Shown: positions 19,157 to 33,528 of the stretch, piece after piece | Position numbering within the stretch: the first letter of the stretch is position 1 | How the letters are laid out: every line of letters begins with the position of its first letter | DNA from: Candidatus Woesearchaeota archaeon | GTDB lineage: Archaea > Nanobdellota > Nanobdellia > Woesearchaeales > GW2011-AR15 | Direction of reading: 5' to 3' | Assembly (NCBI GenBank): GCA_016935095.1 | Contig: JAFGRO010000004.1 | Coordinates: forward strand, 1 to 45,150 | Length of the DNA stretch: 45,150 nucleotides | Notes under the pieces: model-generated | The model's input: only the letters and a program-made list of their open reading frames with translations | What the model was told of the DNA's origin: nothing | The model's database searches: none | Made by a program: the position numbers and the translations under genes

Positions 19157-19272
19157 AGAAAAATCACCACCATGGCCAGATGGAATTTTTGCGTGTTTTA
19201 GCAAAAATGAAATAGGGCTCACAAGTTTTTCCTTTGTGAGACCGTCTGTGCCATGATGGTGGTGATTTTTCT
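19157..19272 (+). ncRNA. Structured palindromic element, copy A
   Basis: A perfect 15-bp outer stem (AGAAAAATCACCACC with its complement at 19258-19272), a 3-nt bulge (GAT), an inner stem ATGGC/GCCAT, and two internal hairpins: ATTTTTGC/GCAAAAAT with an 8-nt loop, and CTCACAA/TTGTGAG. Copy B (33.4 kb, opposite strand) keeps the junction sequences and first hairpin but has different, still complementary bases in the outer stem and second hairpin. Strand is given in the sense shared with the reverse complement of copy B; the true transcribed strand is unknown. It sits between the two ABC transporter genes, antisense to them. Family not recognised. Confidence 0.5.
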
Positions 19273-19335
19273 TCATTATTGTTAAATTTTTATATGAATA
19301 TCATTTCGCGGCATTGTTGTTATTTTTCTTTTTTA

Positions 19336-33422: not shown

Positions 33423-33528
33423 AGCAACAACAATAATGGCAGCGACGGTCTCGATAAGAAAAAAATATCGAGCCCTATTCCATTTTTGCTAAAACTCGCA
33501 AAAATTCCATCTGGCCATTGTTGTTGCT
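33423..33528 (-). ncRNA. Structured palindromic element, copy B
   Basis: The reverse complement matches copy A (19.2 kb). Outer stem AGCAACAACA/TGTTGTTGCT (33423-33432 with 33519-33528), a 3-nt bulge, inner stem ATGGC/GCCAT, hairpin ATTTTTGC/GCAAAAAT identical to copy A, and second hairpin CTCGATA/TATCGAG, which replaces CTCACAA/TTGTGAG. The junctions CAGATGGA, AATAGGG and ACCGTC are conserved. It lies just upstream of the HAD gene, on the same strand in this orientation, so it could be in its 5' leader, unlike copy A. Confidence 0.5.

Follow-up and report, generated by a model that had tools for sequence, protein, structure and literature searches.

Among the described systems, integron attC sites, REP/REPIN repeats, MITEs and certain structured RNAs come closest to the repeat that we describe here. 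Integron attC sites, which are also known from archaea (PMC9668308; an attC-like motif, OTH-22-1, has been reported as well, PMC8632094), are folded single strands in which structure is conserved over sequence, with extrahelical bases in the base stem and a variable terminal structure. The REP/REPIN sequences that accompany RAYT (Y1/HUH) transposases are small, dispersed, intergenic palindromic repeats with probable recognition as ssDNA, and neighbouring inverted pairs of them occur. MITEs are short, non-coding and dispersed, with inverted ends. Finally, in three-way-junction RNAs, such as hammerhead-type ribozymes, variable helices surround a conserved unpaired core. The present element shares these traits, its occurrence in archaea included and the single-stranded form by inference only, and differs from each system in others. 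By contrast with attC, it has a conserved three-way-junction core and forms no cassette arrays; unlike that of REP/REPIN, its fold is branched; unlike those of MITEs, its ends lack sequence conservation and its internal helices covary. In comparison with hammerhead-type ribozymes, its core sequence is different, there is no Rfam match and neither its loops nor its wobble pairs have RNA-like statistics.

The window, that is, the whole stretch of DNA analysed, comprises 45,150 nt of a Candidatus Woesearchaeota archaeon (assembly GCA_016935095.1, contig JAFGRO010000004.1, positions 1 to 45,150). A sequence-only reading of it had reported two copies, A and B, on opposite strands, with shared conserved junctions, one identical hairpin, and an outer stem and second hairpin in which both arms had changed between the copies with pairing maintained. 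The coordinates, strands, junctions and paired changes were all recovered (Table 1); as for the identical hairpin, P2, its stem is indeed the same in both copies, but one loop base differs. Taken alone, copy A folds at -55.3 kcal/mol and copy B at -40.1 kcal/mol, and none of 200 shuffles was as good in either case. The proposed three-way junction is present too, with one refinement: it is the GG of AATAGG that forms pairs with CCGTC, through the CC of the latter, and so extends P3, rather than GATGG. In the aligned copies, the column pair that represents GG/CC (135-183) is paired in 49 of 49 cases, with 7 double changes, whereas the alternative (25-183) is unpaired in 10. GG/CC is assigned to P3, since it turns into GA/TC, GC/GC or GT/AC while GATGG remains unchanged.

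Table 1. Positions of the two copies of the element, and of their parts, within the 45,150-nt window.
Feature	Positions	Strand	Basis or remark
Copy A, whole element	19157-19272	+	Fold z -8.9; 106.7 bits with the covariance model; + is the functional strand
Copy A, P1 base stem, left arm (AGAAAAATCACCACCAT, GGC, CAGA)	19157-19180	+	Sequence, helices 1 and 2
Copy A, conserved unpaired junction TGGA	19181-19184	+	Aligned copies
Copy A, hairpin P2 (ATTTTTGC ... GCAAAAAT)	19185-19208	+	Fold and covariation
Copy A, conserved unpaired junction GAAATA (usually GGAATA)	19209-19214	+	Aligned copies
Copy A, hairpin P3 (GG.CTCACAA ... TTGTGAG.CC)	19215-19243	+	GG/CC covaries elsewhere (GA/TC, GC/GC, GT/AC)
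Copy A, P1 right arm (TCTG, bulged T at 19249, GCC, 3-nt bulge at 19253-19255, outer arm)	19245-19272	+	
Copy B, whole element	33423-33528	-	Fold z -5.2; 97.1 bits with the covariance model
Copy B, outer left arm AGCAACAACAAT	33517-33528	-	Pairs with 33423-33434
Copy B, outer right arm ATTGTTGTTGCT	33423-33434	-	Both members of several outer pairs differ from those in copy A
Copy B, hairpin P2	33482-33505	-	Stem same as in copy A
Copy B, hairpin P3 (CTCGATA / TATCGAG)	33447-33475	-	Both stem arms differ from copy A
Lone right-arm-like stretch GCGGCATTGTTGTTATTTTTC, 3′ of copy A	19308-19328	+	Sequence; possibly a relic half copy

Similar lone arms were also seen after two other copies (G000:C72 and G000:C16b). 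Where half copies occur, left halves lie to the left of full copies (upstream in L276 and L278) and right halves to the right (L277, the stretch in the window, and downstream of G000:C72 and G000:C16:12992), as if half copies accumulated on one side.

The element measures about 75-165 nt, with one minimal form of 46 nt. Its outermost part is a stem of 11-17 pairs of variable sequence (AAC/AAT triplets, ACCACC, GATGAT, GCCTCC and ATCCAGCC types), followed inwards by a 3-nt bulge in the right arm, a GGC/GCC helix (alternatively GAC/GTC or GCC/GGC), a single T bulge, again in the right arm, and an NNGA/TCNN helix (CAGA/TCTG, GCGA/TCGC and others). The junction then runs through unpaired TGGA, P2, unpaired (G)GAATA, P3, which opens with GG...CC, and an unpaired G; in several genomes, there is a second junction form, GGCGA...GAGTAGG. 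Across the aligned copies, variability is highest, or nearly so, at the outermost bases of the element, and the two right-arm bulges, which are seen in the fold of copy A, are both kept. P2 varies in size between a few pairs and more than 100 nt, and both P2 and P3 may be short, long, replaced or absent. For instance, one copy (G000:C36:22594-22639) is a base stem only, and another (G000:C70:16137-16300) has both hairpins enlarged. Given this variability of P2 and P3, the module that is recognised, recognition itself being inferred, is likely to be the base stem and its two bulges, in most cases together with the junction. In genome G025, the copies in L110, L111, L114 and L116 keep the base stem and bulges and have lost the TGGA/GGAATA core, the copy in L108 being the exception; this loss suggests, from comparison of sequences only, that the base stem may be the essential part. 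Additionally, two near-identical copies with near-identical flanks in G002 (L098, contig C16, and L105, contig C76) are distinguished by an insertion of about 75 bp, rich in hairpins, between P2 and P3 of one of them.

The family extends well beyond the window. With blastn, the genome gave 8 matches, of which two represent the end that two contigs share. A first covariance model, built from six copies, gave 23 rows in the genome, which amount to about 18 copies because some rows are a copy matched again on its opposite strand; two other members of the genus had 15 and 13 rows, and further genomes had scattered copies. With a second model, built from 54 copies, 60 of 352 Woesearchaeales genomes were positive, the counts per genome being minimum values with a ceiling of 10, and a phylum-wide draw gave 30 positives among 371 genomes, all of them in Woesearchaeales. 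In a pattern scan of named genomes, the matches were mostly chance bacterial ones, and the carriers were Candidatus Woesearchaeota and 'Nanoarchaeota' MAGs; three patterns had zero matches in viral contigs. Subfamilies are specific to lineages. The sequence-only reading had recognised no known class, and Rfam bears this out: at the gathering score neither the window nor 20 further loci had a match, and permissive thresholds gave chance matches only. Nor was the element found described in the literature, as far as open-licence papers go.

Covariation was measured by counting paired and double-change cells and comparing them with shuffled and slid alignments. In the alignment of 54 copies, 94.4% of the cells pair and every one of the 37 pairs has changed on both sides; there are 480 double-change cells, as against 122 +/- 12 in shuffles and at most 102 in slides, and the covariation score is 0.63, as against 0.18 and 0.09-0.14, respectively. 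A set of 58 largely independent copies gave 92.4% paired cells, two-sided changes in 36 of 37 pairs and 385 double-change cells. The covariation in hairpins P2 and P3 is no weaker than that in the base stem. Two caveats apply: both alignments were made by fitting the copies to the model, and the copies are related, so the cell counts are not independent events. The fold is kept by compensatory change in every helix. Chance is excluded because there are homologues, in the form of the blastn matches, the approximately 18 copies found with the covariance model and the 37 pairs changed on both sides. The initial proposal, a covarying RNA or ssDNA fold with a conserved three-way junction, is consequently supported. 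It would have been refuted by an absence of further homologues with paired substitutions, and these exist in quantity, or by a match to a known transposon end or Rfam family, neither of which was found.

All copies are intergenic or abut gene ends. When both neighbouring genes were called (54 copies), 17 copies lay between divergent genes, 16 were antisense and 12 sense to tandem genes, and 9 lay between convergent ones. The neighbours are housekeeping genes without a common theme, and no recurring gene family was seen. Upstream of the copies, there is no TATA-like peak at a fixed distance, and no replication-strand bias was seen (GC skew, 21 segments). In G000 and also in G001, a copy stands just downstream of the ThrRS gene, the outer stems of these two copies being entirely different. 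In another locus (L077:2993-4009, from G000:C16), the copy starts within the last codons and stop of a gene for a Xer-like tyrosine recombinase.

As to the strand, when G.U pairing was forbidden, the 1x1 mismatches comprised 19 G.T and 1 A.C in a first set of copies and 26 G.T and 3 A.C in a second. With G.T so far above A.C, the strand given by the initial reading is taken as the folding, functional one. Whether this strand folds as DNA or as RNA is a matter of finer statistics. G.U makes up about 3% of the paired cells in the aligned helices and, by free folding, 7.5-7.8% of pairs in the element, as against 18.5% in the SRP RNA of the same genomes. The hairpin loops are mostly triloops, C-GNA-G or C-ANA-G (c[AG]NAg loops account for 26 of 68 element triloops and for 3 of 60 in other genomic hairpins); GNRA loops are rare and UNCG loops are lacking (20 C-GAA-G, 1 GNRA and 0 UNCG in the second set). 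GNA and GNNA loops are known to form extraordinarily stable DNA minihairpins, d(GCGAAGC) melting near 78 °C (PMC4686876). The few G.U pairs, the many C-GNA-G triloops and the near absence of GNRA and UNCG loops therefore favour an ssDNA fold over RNA. It must be considered that the SRP RNA comparison concerns a single family and that all of these arguments are statistical. Moreover, RNA is not excluded, because G.U pairs are present and a few positions, some junction-proximal pairs in the 58-copy set, are rich in wobble. On balance, ssDNA is more likely than RNA, and the strand asymmetry and loop types are compatible, no more, with a folded single strand as substrate, the form of the substrate being inferred.

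The alternative that survives best is that each copy is, or sits in, a transcribed structured RNA, such as a small RNA in many copies or a mobile element that depends on RNA, and that its changes are ordinary RNA covariation. The very strong, strand-specific covariation and the conserved unpaired junction would be expected of it, as would the excess of G.U over A.C on one strand and the G.U-rich pairs near the junction. Against the wobble and loop statistics, however, together with the absence of a promoter signal at a fixed distance, the random orientation to genes, the lack of an Rfam family and the distribution of reverse transcriptases, which were undetected in G000 and G002 and show no association with the element overall (16 of 60 carriers and 79 of 292 others, p 1), we consider an RNA the less likely reading, if still a serious possibility.

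The element is a dispersed, mobile-type repeat that has been gained or lost between species: two sister species have occupied sites in common, and one site is occupied in one species and not in the other. In the sister species G120 and G121, an orthologous site carries the element in inverted orientation (L273:2309-2393 and L286:2079-2171); a second copy, about 500 bp away, has its orientation unchanged. No convincing target-site duplication was found, the lengths of direct repeats being near those of a permuted control with a small excess only, and no clean empty site was found. In G001, a DDE_Tnp_1 insertion sequence (L218 and L221; G001:C216/C214) harbours one copy in the interval from its transposase stop codon to its right end, and this insertion sequence has its own terminal repeats, GGCTACGACTCACATAAGA, and a 9-bp target duplication, TACAAAAAC. 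Two copies in G002 are located on remnants of an insertion sequence of this type.

Another explanation is that the element is an ordinary MITE, its base stem being a terminal inverted repeat that belongs to a DDE transposon, and that its arms match because of subfamilies and template-switch palindrome correction, and not because of selection on the fold. A MITE would account for the element's size, its dispersal between genes, its inverted repeats and the restriction of subfamilies to lineages, recombination between arms would explain the inverted site in the sister species, and palindrome correction would explain why G.U intermediates are scarce. By contrast, the variability of the outermost bases, the lack of a convincing target duplication, the covariation of internal P2 and P3 as strong as that of the base stem, the asymmetry between G.T and A.C, and the persistence of bulges and an unpaired junction that correction should erase are all difficult to accommodate; and the only DDE element found holds the repeat internally, within different terminal repeats and a 9-bp duplication of its own. 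This explanation consequently seems quite doubtful. A cis-acting UTR element or transcription terminator for the adjacent genes is very improbable indeed: some copies do directly follow a stop codon (ThrRS in two species, an HDAC-like gene, the Xer recombinase) and right arms are often T-rich, but many copies lack a T-run, no gene family recurs among the neighbours, 17 of 54 copies are between divergent genes and 16 of 54 antisense to both neighbours, and this random orientation, with the absence of a promoter-like peak, speaks against any general role as a UTR element, riboswitch or terminator.

Copies in close pairs, 5-60 nt apart, were also observed, in four cases (L266:1501-1723, L267:1501-1742, L258:1354-1598 and L290:2058-2308), all with 5′ ends facing each other and with outer-stem types that mostly differ within the pair, an arrangement that recalls REP pairs. 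In flanks of G120 and G121 (L280, L283, L288 and L275), a second short repeat, approximately ACTAGG-NNC-GAA-GNN-CATGT, with a GNA-type loop, recurs in one family at no more than about 100 bp from the element and may there be part of a larger unit.

With regard to the described systems, the attC R boxes (RYYYAAC / GTTRRRY) are both present at the base-stem ends in only 6 of 120 copies, and the attC criterion of either clusters, with cassettes and less than 4 kb between sites, or a nearby IntI fails, the copies being mostly single and dispersed between ordinary genes and PF00589 being undetected in the carrier G042. The GTAG or GGAG expected of REP/REPIN at the 5′ edge or hairpin foot occurs in 8 of 120 copies, and in 20 Y1 regions examined no RAYT gene is flanked by the element, with one clear match at about 2 kb from a Y1 gene. 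For MITEs, neither convincing target-site duplications nor shared terminal inverted repeats are found, as the outer arms vary freely, and no partner transposon was found in genomes that were not read exhaustively. Since these defining tests failed, we file the element as a new family of structured dispersed DNA repeat. As for a possible enzyme, Y1_Tnp (PF01797) is statistically associated with the element, in likeness to REP/REPIN (present in 36 of the 60 carriers, compared with 89 of the 292 genomes without the element; odds ratio 3.4, p 2.5e-5). The comparison is uncorrected for phylogeny and genome size, and the association may reflect no more than the size of the genomes or their load of mobile elements; a Y1 gene went undetected in 8 of 21 multicopy genomes. 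Tyrosine recombinases do not correlate with carriage, and none (PF00589) was detected in the carrier G042, a further difference from attC.

The explanation that we favour, with a probability of about 0.5, is that of a Woesearchaeales family of small dispersed repeats with a conserved function that requires one DNA strand to fold. By inference, this strand would fold as ssDNA when exposed on the lagging strand or in a transfer or transposition intermediate, and a structure-specific enzyme, not identified, would recognise its shape rather than its sequence and then copy, insert or process the element. Its working style may, by analogy, resemble that of the REP/REPIN of Y1 (HUH) transposases and of integron attC sites. 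It is a more tentative proposal that DPANN archaea have here a new class of element, mobile or active in genome processing and separate from attC and REPIN, which combines folded ssDNA, a three-way-junction core and an unidentified structure-specific enzyme. Strongly covarying dispersed folds are usually classed as RNA; the loop and wobble statistics reported here argue that selection may act on ssDNA, and they suggest a testable way of separating ssDNA from RNA folds. If this is indeed an ssDNA element, it would be a further type alongside attC and REPIN, and it would imply that an unknown structure-specific recombinase or HUH enzyme shapes the intergenic DNA of an uncultured archaeal order.
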